A stretch of DNA of 44,717 nt from NCBI GenBank assembly GCA_025363275.1, contig JANYEE010000205.1:1-44717 (forward strand). The letters are read 5' to 3'. Positions 1 through 20,231 of this stretch are shown here, one piece after another; position 1 is the first letter of the stretch; the number at the start of each line of letters is the position of its first letter. A program made the position numbers and the translations under genes. This stretch comes from Burkholderiales bacterium. GTDB lineage: Bacteria > Pseudomonadota > Gammaproteobacteria > Burkholderiales > Burkholderiaceae_C. The notes under the pieces were generated by a model. It was not told the origin of the DNA. It saw nothing but the letters and a program-made list of their open reading frames with translations, and searched no databases.

Positions 1-659
1 GCCGCCACTTGGCTGGTCTTCAATGCCTGGATCTGGCTGGTCTTCAAAGCCGCTACGTCTTGCGTCTCCAAGGCCGCTACGTTGGTCGTGCTCAGAGACA
101 CCACTTGCGCTGTCGTCAGGCTTTGGACTTGCGCCGTGCTCAAGGCCACTACTTGCGCTGTCGTCAGTCCAAGGGCTACTTGGCCCGTGGTCAGCGCAGC
201 GACTTGCGCTGTCGTCAAGCCCGATTGGACTTGGTCGGTGGTGAGCACCGCAACCTGGCTGGTCTTCAGGGCCGCTACGTCACGGGTCTCCAACGCCGCC
301 ACTTGGGTGGTCGAGAGGGCCACAACCTGGCCTGTAGTGAGGCCTTGGATTTGGCCTGTGGTCAGTGCAACGACTTGGGCTGTGGTCAGCCCGGATTGCA
401 CCTGATCGCTCGTCAATGCCACCACTTGGGAAGTTTTCAGCGCAGCCAGTTGCGTCGTCGTCAAACCACCATTGATTTGATCGGTAGTCAACGCCTGGAT
501 ATTTGCCGTGGTCAGCGCTGCAACCTGAGAGGTTTTCAGCGTCGCAAATTGTGCGGTGGTAAAGGCCCTGACTTGGTCTGTTGTCAAAGCAACATAGTCA
601 GCGGTCGAGAATGCGCTTAGTTGCGTGGTAGTCAGCACCGCGATTTGCGCTGACGTCAT
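1..659 (-). repeat. In-frame 24-bp tandem repeat array with a 222-bp higher-order period
   Basis: The repeat gene is made of imperfect 24-bp units (27 bp for the Gly-containing units). A higher-order duplication is visible: GGCTGGTCTTC at 35-45 recurs at 257-267, an offset of 222 bp (74 codons), and the flanking sequence is similar. At protein level units 15-17 (LSTTQVAA, LETRDVAA, LKTSQVAV) match units 24-26 (LSTTNVAA, LETQDVAA, LKTSQIQA). All units stay in frame, so the array is coding. Confidence 0.85.
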
Positions 660-680
660 TCCATTAAAACCAATTGCCAT
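1..680 (-). CDS. Octapeptide-repeat (LTTxQVxA) protein, C-terminus cut by window edge
   Basis: Reading frame starts at ATG 680-678 and stays open to the left edge (226 complete codons, no stop), so the protein is longer than seen. An AGGGG ribosome site (687-691) lies 6 nt upstream. After a 7-residue leader the protein is 27 tandem units of 8 residues, consensus LTTxQVxA; four units (8, 11, 18, 20) are 9 residues with a Gly near the end. It has no Sec signal peptide, no Cys or Trp, few charges, and aromatics only in the first 50 residues. Each unit looks like a short helix with a Thr N-cap and a Gln/Asp capping partner (inference). A strong sigma-28 promoter precedes it and fliT-fliS-fliD lie upstream on the same strand, so it is probably a late flagellar gene. 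I recall similar repeats labelled as heme-utilisation or adhesion proteins in Comamonadaceae, but the function is unknown. Confidence 0.85.
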   Translation of the reverse strand, partial: MAIGFNGMTSAQIAVLTTTQLSAFSTADYVALTTDQVRAFTTAQFATLKTSQVAALTTANIQALTTDQINGGLTTTQLAALKTSQVVALTSDQVQSGLTTAQVVALTTGQIQGLTTGQVVALSTTQVAALETRDVAALKTSQVAVLTTDQVQSGLTTAQVAALTTGQVALGLTTAQVVALSTAQVQSLTTAQVVSLSTTNVAALETQDVAALKTSQIQALKTSQVA

Positions 681-764
681 GTTGAACCCCTAAACAAGCC
701 AAAAACACCCAAACCTGGCATTTGGTAACAAATTGATACCAAACGGATTACCAGTATCTTTGTT

Positions 765-791
765 TTATCGGCAAATTGGTCAACAGATTTA
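765..791 (-). promoter_or_regulatory. Sigma-28 (FliA) promoter of the octapeptide-repeat gene
   Basis: Read on the minus strand, TAAATCTG (784-791) is followed after 11 nt by GCCGATAA (765-772). The -10 matches the enterobacterial sigma-28 consensus in all 8 positions, and the -35 core TAAA is at the canonical 15-nt spacing. The predicted leader is about 75 nt and contains a 7-bp hairpin (721-727 with 737-743). No other gene lies between this promoter and the repeat gene. Confidence 0.8.
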
Positions 792-921: not shown

Positions 922-1212
922 TTAATGTAAGAAGGCCGGAGTGCCAGAAGTGGCTTGGTCGAAATGCGCAAGCCAAGGTTCGGCCAAATAGCGGATTTGG
1001 GCATCGTTGTGCAAGATACGACGCATGATTTTTGATTTTTCAATCCGAGATGCCACATCGAGCTCCTCGGTCTTGGCATGGCGCCTAAGTTGCTCGATCA
1101 GCACTGCACAGGTGCCTTCGTAGCGAACAACGCCATCCCAGTCCTCAGCCTTGGCAGCCTCCAACATACGGGCACTGCTGTCTTCAATAGCTTTGTAATA
1201 GTCAATCAACAT
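922..1212 (-). CDS. fliT: Flagellar export chaperone FliT
   Basis: 96-residue, all-helical, acidic protein with the FliT pattern: an early MLxxAxxxDWD segment, a central ExxCxxLIxxL helix (about residues 33-42) and a C-terminal helical region. FliT binds the C-terminus of the cap protein FliD in the cytoplasm and, in enterobacteria, also antagonises FlhDC. It is the third gene of a minus-strand fliD-fliS-fliT order, 24 nt after the fliS stop. ATG at 1212 has an AGGAG site 8 nt upstream. FliT is poorly conserved in sequence, so the assignment rests on length, pattern and position. Confidence 0.8.
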   Translation of the reverse strand: MLIDYYKAIEDSSARMLEAAKAEDWDGVVRYEGTCAVLIEQLRRHAKTEELDVASRIEKSKIMRRILHNDAQIRYLAEPWLAHFDQATSGTPAFLH

Positions 1213-1236: not shown

Positions 1237-1656
1237 TCAAACCGGTTGCAAATAGGCTGGTCCTCGCCCGTTGATCTGCTTCCATCCGCCGGAAATCTGC
1301 GCGATCAGTGCATTGACTTCATCCAGAATAACTACGTCGTTCTTCAGATTGGCCAACACGAGACGTGCTGCGCAGTAGGTGTACAACGCATCCAAGTTGA
1401 CGGCTAAGTCACCACCATTTTCCATGTCCAGGGGAGCTTTCAGGCCCTCTTCCAGAATGCGAACGGCGTCGCTAATTTGCTTGCATTTTGCGGGTACGTC
1501 ACTGGCTTGGATCGCCAATTTAGCGCTTCCTATGGCACGCTGCAGTGCATCAAAAAGCAGATTTACCAGTTGGTGCGGGTCTGCCATATCCACGCTTGCC
1601 TCAATGCTGGCACGCTTGTAAGCAGAAGCTGAACGGGCGCTGACTGAGCTAAACAT
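1237..1656 (-). CDS. fliS: Flagellin-specific export chaperone FliS
   Basis: 139-residue helical protein starting MFSSVSARSASAYKR. It has the typical FliS features: N-terminal AYxxxxIEASVxxADPHQLV, then LLFDALQRAI, and a C-terminal helix ending in GGW. It caps the C-terminal D0 region of flagellin and prevents premature polymerisation in the cytoplasm. I chose ATG 1656 because AAAGGA lies about 7 nt upstream and family members start here; an upstream in-frame start at 1692 would add 12 unconserved residues. It lies between fliD and fliT, with a candidate weak sigma-28 promoter just upstream. Confidence 0.92.
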   Translation of the reverse strand: MFSSVSARSASAYKRASIEASVDMADPHQLVNLLFDALQRAIGSAKLAIQASDVPAKCKQISDAVRILEEGLKAPLDMENGGDLAVNLDALYTYCAARLVLANLKNDVVILDEVNALIAQISGGWKQINGRGPAYLQPV

Positions 1657-1682
1657 GGCAATTCCTTTTTCTCTTGCACTAT

Positions 1683-1709
1683 GTATCGACAATATTTTTG
1701 CCGACTAAA
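1683..1709 (-). promoter_or_regulatory. Candidate weak sigma-28 promoter of fliST
   Basis: On the minus strand TTTA (1706-1709) and GTCGATAC (1683-1690) are spaced by 15 nt. The -10 matches GCCGATAA in 6 of 8 positions; the -35 is poor (2 of 4 core bases). It would give a leader of about 20 nt before the fliS start, a plausible arrangement. The match is much weaker than those of fliC and flgM. Confidence 0.3.
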
Positions 1710-1812: not shown

Positions 1813-4380
1813 CTAACCCCTAGAATTATTCCACGTCGCCACCTGCTGGGACACATAGGCATTCAAGGCGTTCAGGTTAGCCATTTTGGCATCTAGCGCA
1901 CTGTACTGTTTGCGCAACCGAGCCTCTGTCAAAGCCGCTTTCTCGTTCACCCGGGTTTGCTCAGCGCCGTTTTGAACCAATTCTTTGTCCAAAGCCGCCG
2001 CCTTACTCGCTACGACGCCTCCCGTCGATATCGCCCCCTTCGCAAAGTTGGCGAACTTCAGCGCAAACCCATTGGTGGCAGCGTTTTTGTTGTCGGTAGT
2101 GAAAAGCTTCTGCAGTTCAGCACCGTTATTGGCCGCCGCGCTGAGCTTCATGATGTTGACGGATAGGGAGCCGTCCAATTGACGCTCGATGCCCACTTCG
2201 TTCAAGCGTTTGTAGGTCGACCCATTGCTTACCGAACCCAGCATATTGCGCAGCAAATTTTGTAGACCCACTACGGATGAATCTGCCTGGAACAACGATG
2301 CTTTCTTTGTCGTGGCGTCGTACTTGGTCAGGTCAGACAAATTGGCAGCTAGCGCGTTATACGCAGTCACAAAGTCCTGGACATTGCGCACCGCACCCGT
2401 TACGTCCTCACGAACCGACATATTGACCGAAGATTTGACCTCTCCCGATGTGCCGTACCCTTGCGTCGTGGTTGCCAGCAAATTAATGGTCACACCAGGC
2501 AAATTTTCAGACAGCGTGTTGGTCTTGGAGGTCACCGCCAATCCATTGATACGGGCCTTGGCGTCTTGGCCGTATTGCGCTGGGATACCGGACCCTGCCA
2601 TTCCAAAGGAGCTCGTTTGTGGGTCATAAGCCAGCCTTGAGAGACCTGCATTGTCCGTATTGACGCCGTCACCCGTGTCGGTCACCTGAACCCGAAATCC
2701 CGCATCAGCACCCGTGTTCTTGGAGACCAATTGAAGGCGCTCTGTCGTCCCGTCTTTAAATACGGACGCCAAAACGCCGAAATTGGCAGCGTTAATTTTG
2801 GAAGCGATGGAACTGACAGTGTCTGTGGCCGTAACCGAGATGGCAACATCCGAGCTGCTTGCGGCCGCAGTGAATGTGGGCCGCGCGGCAGCAAGGCCAT
2901 TGGTGGCGTTAGTTACCGCCGTGGTTGCGTTGGCAACATTCTGGTTGGCCGTGGCCACATCGGCCGTGGTTACTTGCTGCGCGGATGCTTTTGAAGCTGT
3001 AACTCCGTTTGCCGCAGCGGCGTCTGAAGCCGCTTGCAACTGCGCAGCCAAGGCTGCAGCCTTGGTAGCCGCCGCCGCCGCGGCATTAGCGACCGCCACC
3101 ACTTGGGCTGCATCCGCGTTGTCGCGGTTAGTCGTGGCAGAAGAAAGTGCGGATGAGGCAGCATCCCGAGCATTTTGCGCGACCACTGCCGCTGCATTGG
3201 CAGCCGATGCGGCTGATGCAGCGGCCGTTGCAGCACTGGATGCCGCAACGGAACTAGCCTTCAAACCCGAGGTTGTACTGGCAGCTTGCGCAGGGTCTGA
3301 ACCGGCGCCTGAAATCAACGCGTCTACAGATGTTTTTACGGTCGGGTAGGACGCTCCCAATGCGCCGTAGGCTATCTTGACCGCGGCAAACGCAGAGTCT
3401 TCTGCCCCCTGCAGAGTAGGTGTCGCGTGGTCATTGGCAGCAATCGCCGAGACCCAAGCCGTGTAGGCATTTGAAAACGTTGCTACTTTGGACCCATCGA
3501 CGTCGGTATTTACAAAATTAGCGATGCGGGTCGCTGCATCAATATCGCTATCACGAGAGGTCTGAAATGCGCTCAAGGCGTTCGCAGCATCCGAGGCTCT
3601 GGTTGACGAGGTTGTGCTGGCCGCACTCGCCGCATTGTTGGCGGCAGTCAGTGCGCCGTCTTTGGTGCTGAAATCCAGTGTTGCACCGTTGAAGCTGTTT
3701 GTCGTTGTCAAGGCCGAAGCATTAGCGGCATTGAGTACCGATGTTGCAGACGAATCAGCACTGGTCGCAACACCCAGACTGTTGTTGGCGTTGAGTAACG
3801 CGGCGTTGGCGGCACCTGACACTAAAGTCGCTGCCGCTAAATCACTGTCAGCTGTCACCAACGAAGCTGATTTGGCCGCCAAATTGGCCTGTGCGGTTAC
3901 TAGCGCGGCTTGCGCGGCTGGCAGTGCCAAGTCCGCAGCGTTGACACCGGCATTATCGGTACCGGCGTTTGTGGATACTCCGTTCCATTTGCCAATACGG
4001 AACGTCAAGGTACCTGCACCTACCGCAGTGCCTGCCGTCAAAGCCGCAGAAGAGCTGGACTGCGTCGTCGCTAGAGCGTCAATGTCAAGCGTGAAGGAGG
4101 TTGCCACGGTCGTGCTGGTCGTGCTGATGGTCGCTGCAGCCGTGTTCGACGACGTAGCGGTGCGTGCCGTCCAGGCACTGGCTGATGCAATGCGGGTGGA
4201 ATTATCAGCGAGGGAGGAAAACTGGGACTGGATCTGTCCGAAGGCCGAAATCTTATTTTTCTCGAAGCTCGCTTTGGCTTCCAAAACTTTTAGGGGCTGC
4301 CTCTCCAAAGCGGTCAGCTTGGTCACGATACTCTCAGAATCGAGTCCACTGCCAATGCCGAGCGATGAAATGGTAGCCAT
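1813..4380 (-). CDS. fliD: Flagellar filament cap FliD with a large Ala-rich insertion
   Basis: FliD forms the cap at the filament tip and folds incoming flagellin. Residues 1-136 carry the conserved FliD N-terminus (SSLGIGSGLDSESIVTKLTALE, split here only for naming) and the start of domain D2. Residues about 501-855 contain the remainder: a flagellin-IN-like segment (about 505-575), the FliD_C region and a C-terminal helix ending YVSQQVATWNNSRG. Between them, about residues 137-500, is an Ala/Ser/Thr/Asn-rich predicted helical block absent from ordinary FliD of about 450-500 residues. The reading frame is intact across it. ATG 4380 has a perfect AGGAGG site 5 nt upstream. It is followed by fliS and fliT; no clear sigma-28 promoter was seen immediately upstream. 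Confidence 0.95.
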   Translation of the reverse strand: MATISSLGIGSGLDSESIVTKLTALERQPLKVLEAKASFEKNKISAFGQIQSQFSSLADNSTRIASASAWTARTATSSNTAAATISTTSTTVATSFTLDIDALATTQSSSSAALTAGTAVGAGTLTFRIGKWNGVSTNAGTDNAGVNAADLALPAAQAALVTAQANLAAKSASLVTADSDLAAATLVSGAANAALLNANNSLGVATSADSSATSVLNAANASALTTTNSFNGATLDFSTKDGALTAANNAASAASTTSSTRASDAANALSAFQTSRDSDIDAATRIANFVNTDVDGSKVATFSNAYTAWVSAIAANDHATPTLQGAEDSAFAAVKIAYGALGASYPTVKTSVDALISGAGSDPAQAASTTSGLKASSVAASSAATAAASAASAANAAAVVAQNARDAASSALSSATTNRDNADAAQVVAVANAAAAAATKAAALAAQLQAASDAAAANGVTASKASAQQVTTADVATANQNVANATTAVTNATNGLAAARPTFTAAASSSDVAISVTATDTVSSIASKINAANFGVLASVFKDGTTERLQLVSKNTGADAGFRVQVTDTGDGVNTDNAGLSRLAYDPQTSSFGMAGSGIPAQYGQDAKARINGLAVTSKTNTLSENLPGVTINLLATTTQGYGTSGEVKSSVNMSVREDVTGAVRNVQDFVTAYNALAANLSDLTKYDATTKKASLFQADSSVVGLQNLLRNMLGSVSNGSTYKRLNEVGIERQLDGSLSVNIMKLSAAANNGAELQKLFTTDNKNAATNGFALKFANFAKGAISTGGVVASKAAALDKELVQNGAEQTRVNEKAALTEARLRKQYSALDAKMANLNALNAYVSQQVATWNNSRG

Positions 4381-4549: not shown

Positions 4550-6028
4550 TTAACGCAGCAGAGCCAGTACGCCCTGTGGCAACTGGTTGGCCTGGGCCAC
4601 CATCGCCGTACCGGCCTGCTGCAGAATCTGCGCACGAGACAAGTTAGCGGTTTCAATGGCGAAGTCCGCATCTTGAATACGTGAACGCGATGCGCTCAAG
4701 TTGTCAGAACTGGTTTGCAGATTGGCAATGGTCGACTCAAAGCGCGATTGCAAAGCGCCGAAGGAAGCGCGCTGGCCATTCACTGCAGACAGAGCAGAAT
4801 CAACGGCTGACAAGGTGCGGTTAGCAGCATCCACGTTGGAAACGTCAAACGTATTGACAGCTTGCAACTGGGAAGCGGCGGTAGCAGAGGAAAAGAAGTC
4901 GGTCGTTGCAGCCACACCGCTCAAACCGAACGTCTTGTTGGAGTCCAGTGTTAGCGCGCCAGTGGTAACGGCAGTTGTTCCAGCGTCCACCGAAGCACCA
5001 CCCACCAACGCACCGGCTGTCGAACCAGTGTTGCCGACCACCGTGATGTTATTACCGGAGGCATTGGTCAGTGTGATACCGCTACCTGCATCGTTGAGCT
5101 TGGCAGTTACACCGGTTTGCGACGCCTTATCGTTGAAGGCGGTAATTGCACCCGCCAAACCGTCTGCCGTGTTACCTGTGGTGGCAAACGAAATAGTCAC
5201 AGCGTTGGTATTGTCAGAAGTGACATTCAAAGAGAAAGTACCGGTGCCGAACGCTGTAGCGTCGATTTCAGTGCGGGCAGTCGCGGTCACATTGGTCTTG
5301 GCCGTTTGCGCATTGACCAAAGCGGCTACGTCCTTCGCTGTGGCGGCGGCAGCAACGGTGATTGTCGATGTCCCAGATGAGCCATTGACAGTGAAATCGC
5401 CACCGACAACACGGCTGGCAGCAGCGGAGCTGGAAGCCACTGCGTTAGCCGTACTACCTTGTACCAAATCACCCCGGGTGCTGGTAGCAGATGCTACGAC
5501 AGACCCAATACGGTTGTTACCGTACTTGCTGGTAGTGAAGTTGGCAGTCGTCGCGGTAATCGTTTGATTGGCATTGGCACCCACCTGGAAAGTAGCAGAG
5601 CCCAAGCTACCGTCCAGAATGTTCTGGCCGTTGAATTGGGTCGTCTTGGCAATGCGATCCAGTTCTGAAGTCAACTGACCCACTTCAGCATTCAACGCTG
5701 CACGGTCCGAAGCTGAGTTAGTAGCGTTAACAGACTGAACCGCCAATTCACGGACACGCTGCAAAATGGTACCGGCCGCGCCCAGTGAACCTTCAGCCAC
5801 CTGCGCCAGAGAAATACCGTCATTGGCATTGCGAGCCGCTTGCTGCGAGCCACGAATTTGCGATGTAAACCGGTCGGCAATCGCCAAACCGGCAGCGTCG
5901 TCCTTGGCGCTGTTAATGCGCAAGCCGGATGACAAACGTTGAATCGAAGTGCTCAGCGACACCTGGCTGGTAGCTAGGTTGCGTTGAGCTGTCAACGAGT
6001 TGATATTGGTATTGATGGTAGCTGCCAT
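4550..6028 (-). CDS. fliC: Flagellin FliC (flagellin 1)
   Basis: 492-residue flagellin, exported through the flagellar type III apparatus to form the filament. The N-terminal D0/D1 region (about residues 1-170) has [14 protein letters not shown] and the [20 protein letters not shown] signature; the C-terminal D1/D0 region (about 400-492) ends [13 protein letters not shown]. The variable centre contains a flagellin-IN-type motif (about 215-320). ATG 6028 has TAGGAG 8 nt upstream. It has its own strong sigma-28 promoter and terminator, so it is likely a monocistronic, highly expressed gene. It is about as similar to the divergent flagellin at 6464 as recent paralogues usually are, including the central domain, indicating gene duplication. 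Confidence 0.97.
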
Positions 6029-6463
6029 TTGGATAACTCCTAAGTAAAACTCACCTAATCCGGCGAAATGCCGATCTCAACGCCAACATTGCTGCTGGCC
6101 GCCATGACCGGCGCGCCGCACTTGACGCCTTCCGGACGACGAACTCATAAGAGCCCGTTAGGATAGTTTTCGGGTGATCCCAGGAAAACTTTAGCAACTT
6201 CAGATCCTCCAACCAACTACCACGCGAAATTTCGACTGGAATTTCGATAAGCCCGGTCTTTCGCCGCTATCTACAAGAAACCAGGGTTTACCCCTATCAA
6301 GATTTGTCAGCACTGGCAAATTTGGCGGGTTTTCCCCGCGCTTATCACCCAAATACCAAAAGCTGGCATCTCCAGAATTCACCCATCGTTACTGATTGTC
6401 TGCAGGTAAGCAGGCTTTGCAATCGGCGGCGACGCTGATTTGTATCTTTTAAGGAGTTTCGCA
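6029..6463. other. Divergent flagellin intergenic region
   Basis: 435 bp between the two flagellin starts. It holds the fliC sigma-28 promoter and leader on the minus side. On the plus side I see no good sigma-28 match for flagellin 2; the best are TTCGATAA near 6243 without a -35, and TCAAGATT-N11-GCAAATTT near 6297. A small GCGGG/CCCGC hairpin lies near 6327-6341. No gene is supported here. Confidence 0.6.
6167..6193 (-). promoter_or_regulatory. Sigma-28 (FliA) promoter of fliC
   Basis: On the minus strand TAAAGTTT (6186-6193) is a perfect 8/8 match to the sigma-28 -35, and CCCGAAAA (6167-6174) matches the -10 in 6 of 8 positions at the canonical 11-nt spacing. The fliC leader would be about 130 nt, unusually long, and contains the palindrome CGGCGCGCCG (6109-6118). 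Confidence 0.85.
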
Positions 6464-8035
6464 ATGGCCTCAACTATCAACACCAATATTCAGTCGCTGA
6501 CTGCGCAGCGCAACCTGTCGGCTTCGCAGATGGCAATGAACACCTCGATGGCACGTTTGTCATCGGGGCTACGGATTAACAGCGCCAAGGACGACGCTGC
6601 AGGCCTGGCCATCAGCGAACGCATGACCTCGCAAGTGCGAGGCCTGAACCAAGCAGCCCGCAACGCTAACGACGGCATCTCATTGTCGCAAGTTGCAGAA
6701 GGCGCCCTGGGCAGTGCGTCCGCCACATTGCAGCGTATCCGTGAGTTGGCAGTGCAGTCTGCCAATGCCACCAACTCTGCATCGGACCGAGCCGCGCTGC
6801 AAGCTGAAGTGGGACAGTTGACCAATGAGCTGGAGCGAATCGCTCAGACCACGCAGTTCAACGGCCAGAATCTGCTCGACGGAAGCTTTACATCTGCCGA
6901 CTTTCAGGTGGGTGCAAATGCTAACCAGCGCATAACTGCCACCACTGCCAACTTCAGCACGACGAAATACGGAGGCAACCGAATCGGTTATCTGCCTGCC
7001 ATTCCGGGCAGCACCAAGGGCGACCTGATGCTGGGCACCGCTAGCGCAGCCGCTATTCCGCCATCAGCGAGCGCCGCCAGCAGGGTCGCAGCGGCTGGCG
7101 ACTTTGTAGTGAACGGAGCTTCAGGCAGTGCAACGATTGCATACCCGGCTGCCGCAAGCGCGAAAACGGTGGCGGCGCTAGTCAACGCTCAGGCCGGTGT
7201 GACCAATGTCACTGCTACCGCCTTAACAGAAATTGACCTAAACAACTTCGCCCCAGCAGCAACTCCGGCGGGTTCTGGTAATTTTTCGCTCAGCGTAGCA
7301 TCCAATAATGCATCAGCAGTCACCGTATCCTTCTCGACTGCGGGCAACTCGTCAGACGGCTTAGCCTCTGCCATCAGCGCTTTCAACGACAAGAGCTCCC
7401 AAACCGGTGTCGTGGCCAAACTTAACCAGGCTGGCACTGGGATCACGTTGACCAACCTCGCAGGTTCGGACATCCAACTTGTCAACAACTCAGTCACGGA
7501 CACATTCGATGCGGTGAATATTGCGGTGGACACGACGCCAATACCGCCCCTACCTCCCGTCATCACACCCACTGCGTTTGCGGTGGGTGCCGCAGGGGGA
7601 ACCGCCGTTATCACTGGGGCTGTGACTCTGGATTCGGACAAAACCTTTGGCACCAGTGCCGGATCTGCGAGCAACACCACCGACTTTTTCAACGTCACCA
7701 CAGCGTCTTCTCAGTTGCAGGCAGTGAATTCCTTCGACATCTCCAATGTAGATTCCGCTAACCGTACGCTCGCAGCCGTAGATTCTGCATTGTCAGCAGT
7801 GAACGGTCAGCGCGCCAAATTCGGCGCGTTGCAATCCCGCTTTGAAGCGACGATTTTGAGTTTGAACACGATGTCGGAGAACGTCTCAGCATCACGCTCG
7901 CGCATTCAGGATGCGGACTTCGCGATGGAAACTGCCAATTTGGCCCGTACACAGATCTTGCAACAAGCCGGCACGGCGATGGTGGCACAGGCCAATCAGT
8001 TACCCCAATCCGTTTTGCAATTGCTCAAGGGCTAA
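6464..8035 (+). CDS. fliC: Second flagellin (FliC2)
   Basis: 523-residue flagellin paralogue with conserved D0/D1 ends: [18 protein letters not shown] at the N-terminus with [20 protein letters not shown], and [14 protein letters not shown] at the C-terminus. The central variable region is about 30 residues longer than in fliC and includes a Pro-rich stretch ([13 protein letters not shown], near residue 358). ATG 6464 was chosen because AAGGAG lies 7 nt upstream; a TTG at 6440 would add 8 residues. It is divergent from fliC and precedes flhDC by 350 bp. No clear sigma-28 promoter and no strong terminator were found, so its expression may differ from that of fliC. Confidence 0.96.
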
Positions 8036-8385
8036 ACACCTACTGAGCCTATCGACTTGGCAACGTTCTTTGATCGACCAAAGCCGTAACGCTTGGGCGC
8101 ACAGAAACATTCGCAAAAAAAGTTCTCGGGTCGAGACCCCCACTTGTCGGTAGACAAATTGGCGCTGGTTCCGATCACCTAACTACGGGCGGACTACTTG
8201 GCTTCTCGGATCTGAGTGCCCGAGTAATCGCAAGCCAAAACGCGGTGCTTGTAGGAGTTTCGCTTACAGACTTTTGTCGTTTACCTGACGTGCGCATTAG
8301 CCGTTTTCTGATTTAAGTTTTGCGTCTGGCCGCCCAGAATTGACTCCATGGTGATTCACACGAATGACCCCACCAGGAGCGCAAA
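8036..8385. other. flhDC upstream region
   Basis: 350 bp between flagellin 2 and flhD. I see a small GGGTC/GACCC inverted repeat near 8130-8142 and a nested hairpin at 8198-8238: TTGGCTT with AAGCCAA outside, CTCGG with CCGAG inside. No convincing terminator for flagellin 2 and no assignable -35/-10 or CRP site for flhDC were found. No gene is supported here. Confidence 0.5.
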
Positions 8386-16503: not shown

Positions 16504-17287
16504 AACACCGCAGCACCAGGCCGTCGGCTTAGGTTCTCTCGCACGCGCGCACAGCGCCCGCTTGGTGGCGATGGTGAGCCACGGCGATGAAGAAACAGAG
16601 CTGTCGCTGTTGTGGCGCTTGTGTCTGACTTGGGTGCGATTGGGCTACCCAGTGACGGTGCTGGACGCTGGCAATTTGGAATCCGCAGATAACCCCGGAC
16701 TCGCGCAGTTGCTAGACTGCCCCTACGGATCAGGCTGCAACAACCAGGATGCAGCAGCCTGGAGCGTCCTTCCCGCTGCCGCTGGCCTACACAGTCTGCG
16801 CCCTGCAGCAGGTGCTGAGGACGGACTTACACGCCGTTTAGCCAACCTGTTTTCCGACGATGATGTCGTCGTCTTGTACGGCAACGCAGACACTTTGCTC
16901 CAGTTGCTGCCCGACGCCGTGCTGCAACCCGTGATAGTCGTGTCGTCAGCACCAAAATCATTACTCAACAGCTATCAGGCTCTAAAACGATTGCTCGGAA
17001 GCGGACATATGTCCCCTTTGGTGGTAGACCCTTCTGCAGCCGATATCGGCTCGCTCACCACAGCCAGTGCGGGTTTTGCCTTAGCCGATTGTGCCAAGAA
17101 CTTTCTGGCGTACGACTTGAAATGGATACGAATACAAACAACCCACGAGGACAGTGCACCAGCCTCTGATTTGCAGCGGATGGCCTTGCGTGTGCTCGAA
17201 AACGCTCTACCTTTGTCAGACCGTTGGAAGCACATGGCGGCCAGCGAGACTAAGATGGATGCTAGGCAATTTTCCAGGAGCCATTGA
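16496..17287 (+). CDS. flhG: FlhG/FleN-like MinD-family protein lacking the Walker A motif
   Basis: 263-residue protein in the usual flhG slot, between flhF and fliA, overlapping each by 8 and 1 nt. It keeps the MinD/ParA layout: RLVAMV (22-27) as the first strand, VTVLDAGN (53-60), DDDVVVLYGNAD (121-132) at the Walker B position, and PVIVVSSAPKSLLNSYQAL (145-163). The P-loop region, normally SGKGGVGKT, reads SHGDEETELS (28-37), with no Gly-rich loop and no Lys-Thr, so ATP binding in the classical way is unlikely. FlhG normally restrains flagellar number and activates FlhF GTPase. The role here may be structural or regulatory. Confidence 0.75.
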   Translation: MHETPQHQAVGLGSLARAHSARLVAMVSHGDEETELSLLWRLCLTWVRLGYPVTVLDAGNLESADNPGLAQLLDCPYGSGCNNQDAAAWSVLPAAAGLHSLRPAAGAEDGLTRRLANLFSDDDVVVLYGNADTLLQLLPDAVLQPVIVVSSAPKSLLNSYQALKRLLGSGHMSPLVVDPSAADIGSLTTASAGFALADCAKNFLAYDLKWIRIQTTHEDSAPASDLQRMALRVLENALPLSDRWKHMAASETKMDARQFSRSH

Positions 17288-18003
17288 TGTACACCGCCAA
17301 GGGGCAACTCGACCGCAATGCGCTGATCCGGCAGTACCAGCCGCTGGTTCGCAAGCTTGCACACCACATGATGGCAAAATTGCCACCCAGTGTGGAGGTC
17401 GATGACCTGATTCAAGTCGGTTTGATCGGCCTGTCGGAAGCTCTTTCACGCTATGAGGCCGCGCAAGGCGTTCAGTTTGAAACCTTTGCCACCCAACGCA
17501 TCCGTGGCGCTATGCTCGATGAGCTGCGGGAAAACGACTGGATGTCCCGCGGCTCCCGCAAGAGCCAGAAAGATATCGAAATAGCAATGCGCAAGCTGGA
17601 GCATAGTTTGGGTCGCAGCCCCCTGGAGTCGGAGATTGCTGTTGAAATGGGCCTGAATCTGGTGGATTACCAAAGCCTGCTCAGTAAAGTTCGCGGAACG
17701 CAATTGGTGTACTTGGAAGACATGTCACGCAGTGGCGAAGACGACGACACCTACCTGGACCGCCATGTGGCTGACGCGGGAGCAGATCCGCTCAATATGT
17801 TGCGCGATCAGCGTTTGCGGGCTGGGTTAGTGGCAGCCATCAAGGGGCTGCCGGAGCGCGAGCAGTACATCATGAGCATGTACTACGAGCAGGACATGAA
17901 TCTGAAGGAAATTGCCGCGGTGCTGGATGTCACCGAGTCACGCATCTGCCAATTGCACAGCCAATCCATTGCCCGGCTCCGGGCCAAAATGCGATCACAC
18001 TGA
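17287..18003 (+). CDS. fliA: RNA polymerase sigma-28 factor FliA
   Basis: 238-residue flagellar sigma factor. Region 2 is at about 20-90 (VDDLIQVGLIGLSEALSRY, FETFATQRIRGAMLDELR), region 3 at about 100-150, and region 4 HTH at about 190-235 (LKEIAAVLDVTESRICQLHS). ATG 17287 overlaps the preceding stop as TGATG, with AGGAG 8 nt upstream. It would recognise the TAAA-N15-nCCGATAA promoters seen upstream of fliC, flgM and the repeat-protein gene, and is inhibited by FlgM encoded about 400 bp away on the other strand. Confidence 0.98.
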   Translation: MYTAKGQLDRNALIRQYQPLVRKLAHHMMAKLPPSVEVDDLIQVGLIGLSEALSRYEAAQGVQFETFATQRIRGAMLDELRENDWMSRGSRKSQKDIEIAMRKLEHSLGRSPLESEIAVEMGLNLVDYQSLLSKVRGTQLVYLEDMSRSGEDDDTYLDRHVADAGADPLNMLRDQRLRAGLVAAIKGLPEREQYIMSMYYEQDMNLKEIAAVLDVTESRICQLHSQSIARLRAKMRSH

Positions 18004-18384: not shown

Positions 18385-18426
18385 TTCAGGGGCTCCGCAG
18401 GGTAAGTGCACAGCCCCAGTTGGGAC

Positions 18427-18753
18427 CTACCGGCTGGTGCGGCTCAACATGTCCTGTGCATTGGATAACAATTTGTCGGCAATGGCTTCGGGATTCACGG
18501 TGTAAGTACCATCCTGGATGGACGCTTTGATCGCAGCCACTTTCTGGGTGTCGATGTCCGCCACATCGCTGCGTTTGGCCTCTTCTAGGCCCCGAGCCTC
18601 GGTGGAAACCGTTACTGAGACACTTGCCGAGCGCGACGATTGCACCGCGTTGGTGGTGGCGGAAACAGCCGCACTCGCACCTTGACTGGCTTTCTGGGCA
18701 GCGTTGGCTTGGTTGACCAAATTGGCAGGATCGGATGCAGGACTGATTTTCAT
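18427..18753 (-). CDS. flgM: Anti-sigma-28 factor FlgM
   Basis: 108-residue protein with a disordered Ala/Ser/Thr-rich N-terminal half and the FlgM C-terminal sigma-binding region: RSDVADIDTQKVAAIKASI, DGTYTVNPEAIADKLL. It binds FliA until the hook is finished and is then exported. ATG 18753 has GGAG 6 nt upstream. It has its own strong sigma-28 promoter, giving the standard negative feedback. flgA lies upstream and the flgN-like gene downstream. Confidence 0.95.
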   Translation of the reverse strand: MKISPASDPANLVNQANAAQKASQGASAAVSATTNAVQSSRSASVSVTVSTEARGLEEAKRSDVADIDTQKVAAIKASIQDGTYTVNPEAIADKLLSNAQDMLSRTSR

Positions 18754-18795
18754 GGCGTTCTCCAAAACTACGATAGGCGTAGCCTCGTGCATTTG

Positions 18796-18822
18796 TTATC
18801 GACCGCATCATGGCTGACTTTA
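18796..18822 (-). promoter_or_regulatory. Sigma-28 (FliA) promoter of flgM
   Basis: On the minus strand TAAAGTCA (18815-18822, 6 of 8 with a perfect TAAAG) and GTCGATAA (18796-18803, 7 of 8) are separated by exactly 11 nt. The leader to flgM would be about 35-40 nt. It lies in the flgA-flgM gap, so flgM can be made from both the flgA transcript and this late promoter. Confidence 0.88.
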
Positions 18823-18847
18823 GGTAAATCTGCACCTGAATTCGGCT

Positions 18848-19787: not shown

Positions 19788-20231
19788 ATGCTTGCCAATT
19801 TGACCGATGCGCTGGACTTTCACGCGAAAGCGCTTGTGCTGCGCTCTGAACGTCAAAAAGTGATCGCCAGCAATATTGCCAACGCAGACACACCCGGCTA
19901 CTCCGGGCGGGACATCAACTTCAAGGAAGCCATGACTGCGGCGGTGGGTGGTGCATCGCTGAGCCTTCGTCCCCAGCCTCCCAGTGGCGGCACGCCGATT
20001 GGCACAACCGACAGCCGCCATATTCCCTTGCAACCCAGTACAGCCAGCCTGGGCAATGGCCAATCGAGCCTGCAGTACACCGTGCAAACCCAACCCTCCA
20101 TGGACGGCAATAGCGTCGACATGGACCGCGAACGCGCCAGCTTTGCAGACAACGCAGTGCGCTACGAAGCCACCCTTCGCTTTATTAACGGCAGCTCAAG
20201 AACAATCTTGAGTGCCATCCAGGGTCAGTAA
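19788..20231 (+). CDS. flgB: Flagellar proximal rod protein FlgB
   Basis: 147 residues. The N-terminal flagellar rod motif is present (RQKVIASNIANADTPGYSGR, about 22-41) and the C-terminal helix has FADNAVRYEATLRF. It is part of the proximal rod in the periplasm and lacks a Sec signal, being exported by the flagellar machinery. It is the first gene of flgBCDEFGHIJKL; GAGG lies upstream of ATG 19788. The 214-bp gap to flgA contains a small hairpin (19749-19763) but no assignable FlhDC site. Confidence 0.96.
   Translation: MLANLTDALDFHAKALVLRSERQKVIASNIANADTPGYSGRDINFKEAMTAAVGGASLSLRPQPPSGGTPIGTTDSRHIPLQPSTASLGNGQSSLQYTVQTQPSMDGNSVDMDRERASFADNAVRYEATLRFINGSSRTILSAIQGQ

Follow-up and report, generated by a model that had tools for sequence, protein, structure and literature searches.

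The RTX adhesin FrhA of Vibrio cholerae is flagellar-regulated and exported by a type I system and is reported to be encoded by a class 4 flagellar gene with lowered expression in strain O395 upon loss of FlrA, FlrBC or FliA (PMC6890996, PMC10865825), and frhA expression rises without FlrA in late stationary phase in an El Tor strain of the same paper (PMC6890996/PMC10865825). A large adhesin with a partner glycosyltransferase of the HMW1C/GT41 kind is known as HMW1/HMW1C (PMC3012730, PMC3983070), and cytoplasmic O-glycosylation of flagellins is known for FlmG (PMC7591256). The octapeptide repeat considered here is identical in kind to the Pfam family PF20080 (ALTTAQ_rpt), whose entry gives the repeat a name but assigns it no function, no regulon and no route of export. 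Neither a paper naming 'ALTTAQ' nor a described role of the family was found in the literature searched; an earlier note on this DNA had called the repeat protein uncharacterised, which holds for its role and not for the family as such.

Among these systems, FrhA appears to be the nearest published counterpart found, with similar regulation and export if our inferences hold. Both are large type-I-exported surface proteins under the flagellar hierarchy, in the present case as predicted from the genes; the ALTTAQ protein, on the other hand, has screw repeats, a module like that of FrpC and an adjacent GT41 gene, whereas Ig-like extenders are described for FrhA. With HMW1/HMW1C the locus shares the combination of a large protein with a GT41-kind enzyme, but HMW1/HMW1C involves two-partner secretion and N-linked sugars and the ALTTAQ locus a type I exporter. 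On balance, the comparisons favour, with some reserve, a sigma-28-controlled, type-I-exported, probably O-glycosylated helical-screw surface protein of the swimming stage. New are the sigma-28 sites across the genus, the apparent continuation of the gene on a second contig together with an exporter, and the linkage to flagellin and GT41, the repeat family itself being already present in Pfam.

An octapeptide-repeat gene at a contig edge

The window, that is the whole stretch of 44,717 nucleotides that was analysed, equals an entire contig (C135) of a 3.7-Mb assembly of a Burkholderiales bacterium consisting of 269 contigs. The features needed in the following are:

3..680, minus strand, ALTTAQ octapeptide-repeat gene, 5' part only (encodes 226 aa; truncated by the contig end; recognised by Pfam)
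743..758, minus strand, conserved element GATACTGGTAATCCGT, adjoining the -10 on its downstream side (four related upstream regions; candidate start-site or regulator element)
765..791, minus strand, sigma-28-type promoter TAAATCTG-N11-GCCGATAA (consensus match; similar sites in relatives)
922..1212, minus strand, fliT (PF05400, E 8.5e-18; flanking marker)
1237..1692, minus strand, fliS, start codon uncertain (PF02561, E 1.6e-31; flanking marker)
1813..4380, minus strand, fliD with a long central insert (PF07195/PF02465; flanking marker)
4550..6028, minus strand, flagellin gene (PF00669/PF00700), downstream of the promoter at 6167..6193
6167..6193, minus strand, flagellin promoter TAAAGTTT-N11-CCCGAAAA, member of the matrix training set
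17284..18003, plus strand, fliA for the sigma-28 of this genome (assigned from similarity to FliA of E. coli)

The repeat gene occupies the minus-strand frame 680..3, which opens with ATG at 680 and runs without a stop up to the window edge, the end of C135. Segmentation into LTTxQVxA units gave 26 complete repeats plus an incomplete 27th, in agreement with the 27 units from start codon to edge counted earlier, and these repeats match PF20080 with E 2.4e-56 (187.6 bits against a curated cut-off of 26.4 bits). No Sec signal was visible upon inspection by eye of the N-terminus MAIGFNGMTSAQ, consistent with the signal peptide having been reported as missing, and the gene lies, as described before, just past fliD-fliS-fliT, on the same strand and 241 bases beyond fliT. 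The same cluster contains a further flagellin gene (6440-8035) and flhDC, motAB, cheY, flhBA, fliA and many flg genes, and the host genome encodes both FliA and flagellins. The FliD protein (1813-4380) comprises 855 aa, with a long Ala/Ser-rich insert separating the N- and C-terminal domains.

Beyond position 1 the gene apparently goes on in contig C162, where its C-terminus carries an FrpC-like module and exporter genes follow. Window positions 1-141 equal the first bases of C162 in an exact 141-base overlap, and on C162 the frame runs through repeats (PF20080, E 1.5e-58 for this part) and a C-terminal part to a stop at base 1603. Should the two contigs abut, the protein would measure at least 713 aa. 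The join of C135 and C162 is based on this overlap and on synteny in relatives, and the ALTTAQ gene apparently continues from one contig into the other, as judged from sequence. In the genus, several further ALTTAQ genes likewise break off inside the repeats at contig ends; open frames of the family reach about 6,000 codons. A second ALTTAQ gene of the same genome (C172; L087:5443-8562) has a hydrophobic segment at its start, no type I genes recognised alongside and a sigma-28 score of 7.8, which is not good.

The sigma-28-type site and its conservation

An exact TAAA-N15-GCCGATAA is located at 791..765 on the minus strand, with its 5' end 111 bases upstream of the ATG, and constitutes a single copy in the 3.7-Mb genome. 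With at most one mismatch, 12 such places occur in the genome versus 15 for a reversed-pattern control. The looser pattern THAA-N15-VCCGAWAR occurs at 8 genome places, two of which are the ALTTAQ and flagellin promoters; at the other six no flagellar gene was recognised by eye, and since reversing the pattern increased the number of matches (15), such patterns lack specificity by themselves. A weight matrix was built from 12 sites, each of which precedes a flagellin gene of the genus, the genome's own flagellin among them; being trained on flagellin promoters only, it owes nothing to ALTTAQ genes. Of its 25 best background regions, 18 were fliS or fliD upstream regions, in a background of 333 regions with flagellin and ALTTAQ excluded.

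By this matrix the ALTTAQ site scores 13.4 and comes fifth among the window's distinct places, after the flagellin promoter at 6193..6167 on the minus strand (25.8; one of the training sites), an intragenic position at 20185 (15.5), one upstream of flhD at 8313 (14.3) and one inside ORF 18386-18835 (13.5). This ORF, at first presumed to be flgM, had no Pfam match, and its site was for this reason not used as a control. The earlier note had named its -10 the best sigma-28 -10 in the window; the site is the sole exact consensus there, but not the top place under the flagellin-trained matrix.

Among the 22 ALTTAQ starts of the genus for which upstream sequence exists, 11 are preceded by scores of at least 12, versus 6 of 227 other upstream regions, whose genes resemble neither Fli nor any other protein of the window (Fisher p 1.5e-9; Mann-Whitney 5e-10); these p-values are too small because the loci are related, and the threshold of 12 and the start codons were picked by the analyst after part of the data had been seen. 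Genes of the window's type, namely seven beyond fliS/fliT and one in genome G014 on a contig that shows no flagellar gene, reach the threshold in 7/8 cases, the eighth (G013) having TTAATAGT...GCCGATAG at the corresponding place with a score of only 7.4. High scores are equally seen for T1SS-linked ALTTAQ genes not observed by flagellar genes (L126, 19.3; L130, 15.9); the 11 of 22 starts below 12 include the T1SS-linked L131, L198 and L206 as well as the own second gene on C172. The sites of the relatives are located at -110 to -116 or -182 to -196. Four upstream regions, aligned over 241 bases, share 43 invariant columns, of which 21 lie in the 49 bases 791-743, a segment that extends from the -35 through GATACTGGTAATCCGT, promoter included. 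A chance origin of the site was set aside on the grounds of the aligned upstream regions and the matrix counts.

The site might still be fortuitous or minor, with expression achieved by read-through from fliDST or by another promoter, a reading that we consider improbable. It draws on the position of fliT, on the same strand and only 241 bases away, with no terminator-like site found on that strand in the gap, which leaves room for read-through, on the number of sites with up to one mismatch, which is no higher than in the control, and on the weak G013 site. However, sites are kept where OEP and Sel1 genes intervene (L118, L119, L120, L125) and where a divergent gene intervenes (L123), and they also precede T1SS-associated ALTTAQ genes unlinked to flagellar genes. 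Cotranscription as the sole explanation was considered and set aside. Membership of the gene in the sigma-28 regulon, as proposed in the earlier note, is supported by the conservation of the site in relatives and by the association of the family with flagellin and flagellar genes in different genera.

Outside the genus, scores of at least 10 precede 8/34 starts versus 10/252 background regions (p 3e-4), and scores of at least 13 precede 3/34 versus 4/252 (p 0.04). The 26 of 34 starts of this wide set below 10 include every gene scored there from Duganella, Rugamonas, Nitrospirillum and Shinella; in a separate scan, two Duganella rivi genes on L218 scored 16.8 and 13.3. In an earlier plain-consensus scan, the wide upstream regions were mostly at shuffle level, the window apart. 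Four of five Pseudomonas ALTTAQ genes possess TAAAGG or TCAAGG followed by GCCGYCA, located between -97 and -114 relative to the listed start codons, sites that score only 8.0-12.3; the flagellin sites of the same genomes differ, with TAAAGTTG...GCCGATAA or GCCGATAC in four and none good in the fifth.

The C-terminal module and the adjoining exporter genes

On C162 the ALTTAQ C-terminus is followed, in the same direction, by genes for a glycosyltransferase (TPR-GT41), a Sel1 protein, an ABC transporter (C39-like domain), HlyD and a TolC-type OEP. The identical order is found at L042, L122 retains it as far as HlyD, and at L135 just ABC and HlyD follow. The C-terminal module of the own C162 protein is similar by sequence to the self-processing module of FrpC from Neisseria meningitidis (E 9.8e-34), and the fold is equally matched, with a TM of 0.77-0.79 (by target) between the model of the L042 C-terminal domain and the FrpC module (PDB 6sjw, 6sjx). 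The scissile bond of FrpC is Asp-Pro. This scissile Asp is absent in ALTTAQ, the residue before the conserved Pro being Thr in 28 and Ser in 13 of 41 rows, which are pattern finds among the ALTTAQ proteins examined with at least one protein counted twice, and Thr in the own protein; with Thr or Ser in place of Asp before Pro, FrpC-type self-cleavage is not expected. At the C-terminus, where an uncleaved type I export signal would be expected, an ending such as ILAS, ILAA or LLAS recurs in part of the relatives. The C-terminal model, with a mean pLDDT of 59.9, is weak except in the repeats and the FrpC-like module. No RTX nonapeptides of the GGxGxD type occur in the C162 part, so that, in contrast to FrhA, the definition of an RTX protein does not apply and an identity as RTX adhesin was set aside.

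Export of the protein by a type I system fits, given the ABC/HlyD/TolC set after the gene and the FrpC-type C-terminal module. The absence of a Sec signal had been taken to agree with either type III or type I export, and of these the type I route fits and the flagellar type III route is not supported for this gene, though it may apply to relatives that lack the module. Export by the flagellar type III apparatus, or some other path by which the protein ends up coating the filament or as a rod associated with its cap, has observations in its favour. In Duganella and Rugamonas the ALTTAQ gene has fliR on one side and flgL/flgK on the other, in Nitrosomonas it follows fliF-K, and in a gammaproteobacterial MAG it lies by fliD/fliS; many relatives lack the FrpC-like module, for example in Shinella, Nitrosomonas, Propionivibrio and Riflebacteria, and relatives without it occur beside flagellar genes. 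N-termini can be aligned across phyla, with M1 and Q36 invariant and D28 nearly so among 16 sequences, although this may be mere repeat likeness, and all 41 genomes with relatives possess flagellin. Set against a full type I exporter in the same gene run and a C-terminal module known from FrpC, this route seems quite improbable for the gene of the window. A wider proposition, in which ALTTAQ proteins form a general class of flagellar-stage exoproteins, glycosylated screw rods made with the filament, bound to filament or pole and exported by dedicated type I systems in part of the lineages, with the flagellar exporter as a possible route where the FrpC-like module is absent, is to be regarded as rather unlikely.

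The neighbouring GT41 glycosyltransferase

The GT41 enzyme probably O-glycosylates Thr/Ser-rich material before export, most likely the repeats, as suggested by gene order. GT41 could instead target the flagellins and not the repeat protein, its adjacency to ALTTAQ being due to shared flagellar islands; the O-glycosylation of flagellins in the cytoplasm by FlmG provides a precedent (PMC7591256), and at L119 GT41 also adjoins fliS. In the Pseudomonas loci L003, L004, L008 and L009, on the contrary, GT41 directly follows ALTTAQ with gaps of 85-88 bases, and no core flagellar gene was found within the stretch examined. Flagellins as the targets are a possible, though less likely, reading than modification of the repeats.

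Predicted fold of the repeats

Structure prediction of repeat units, suggested in the earlier note, was performed with AlphaFold2 on 16 aligned N-termini and resulted in a model in which each octad forms a single short helix, giving 27 helices in succession (mean pLDDT 95.3, pTM 0.86), according to which the repeats are a screw-like helical solenoid. A solved chain of 120 residues with octads of the same kind exists, HeliScrew4 (PDB 9zem; E 1.7e-12); no paper on it was found in the literature search. Foldseek with the repeat model returned mesothelin first (E 6.4e-4), with a TM of at most 0.47 among the top matches, too weak for a shared fold.

A cytosolic role of the protein, as a TALE-like repeat protein that binds DNA or acts as a scaffold, is hardly credible. 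There is a Pfam match to the TAL effector repeat at 22.5 bits, under the cut-off of 28, and a phmmer match to a TAL effector chain at E 1.3e-5. TALE units, however, comprise 33-35 residues and two helices, while the present unit has 8 residues with one short helix, and exporter genes adjoin. A relation to TAL effectors was rejected on account of the sub-threshold Pfam match and the wrong unit length.

A proposed course of events

The repeat family, the promoter sequence and its conservation, the gene order, the domain matches and the predicted fold together suggest a course of events in which FliA would transcribe the ALTTAQ gene late in flagellar assembly, alongside flagellin, as indicated by the promoter. 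The neighbouring GT41 might then O-glycosylate Thr/Ser-rich material prior to export, the repeats being the likeliest substrate, and the product would leave through the adjoining ABC-HlyD-TolC system with its C-terminal part leading, as gene order and domain suggest. The long surface rod may finally serve contact or adhesion in the swimming stage, the weakest of these steps. A repeat family with a Pfam name would in this way gain a likely regulon, an export route, a modifying enzyme and a fold. If right, swimming cells of several genera make very long extracellular rods during filament building, which would connect motility with surface contact as FrhA does, though through a separately built protein.

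Distribution of the family and flagellar linkage

A scan of named genomes gave 42 loci with relatives in Burkholderiales, Pseudomonas, Nitrospirillum, Shinella, Nitrosomonas and MAGs, with labels including Acidobacteria, Spartobacteria and Riflebacteria; because the search relied on short peptide patterns taken from this protein, the set favours near relatives. Sphaerotilus mobilis DSM 10617, Noviherbaspirillum galbum and Pseudomonas guryensis are examples of environmental strains that carry the gene. The genomes behind these loci encode flagellin in 41/41 cases (15/15 and 26/26), and a location of the family mostly in non-motile species is thus not what was encountered. Compared with the base rate of 210/370 among genomes of the window's class, this corresponds to p 4e-10, a value that ignores relatedness, and the 42 loci extend beyond that class. 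Of the 370 class genomes sampled, eight have the family, seven of these eight with flagellin.

Core flagellar genes were found at 13/42 loci (seven of the 13 from Duganella or Rugamonas) versus 1/40 arbitrary 20-kb stretches, and at 29/42 loci none was present within the stretch examined. GT41 occurs at 17/42 loci versus 0/40 stretches, and HlyD, at 4/42 versus 0/40, is not significantly enriched (p 0.06). The 40 control stretches were picked blind at round coordinates in 17 of the 41 genomes, from contigs known for carrying ALTTAQ or flagellin matches.

Within the genus, ALTTAQ is present in 21/37 genomes, of which 15 have FliD, four more flagellin only and two neither (85% and 71% complete); 13 of the 16 genomes without ALTTAQ have FliD or flagellin. 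The survey of co-occurrence with fliD that had been proposed accordingly did not tie ALTTAQ to FliD within the genus (15/25 FliD-positive versus 6/12 FliD-negative genomes, p 0.73). ALTTAQ lies beyond the fliD-fliS(-fliT) block in 7/24 FliD-positive genomes, counting those with fliD surroundings read and G029 left out, and some contigs end shortly past fliD. In four genomes of the genus (G001, G007, G020, G030), another ABC/HlyD-like pair and a TPR protein directly follow fliS/fliT, a second export cassette (L175:6918-13347; L178, L183, L188) that occupies the junction where the window has ALTTAQ. Adjoining fliS, ORFs of ~1230 aa that are 69% alike occur at L119:7021-10719 and L120:5683-9375. 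Among 14 control genomes, PF20080 was present only in Caulobacter vibrioides, a tractable model.
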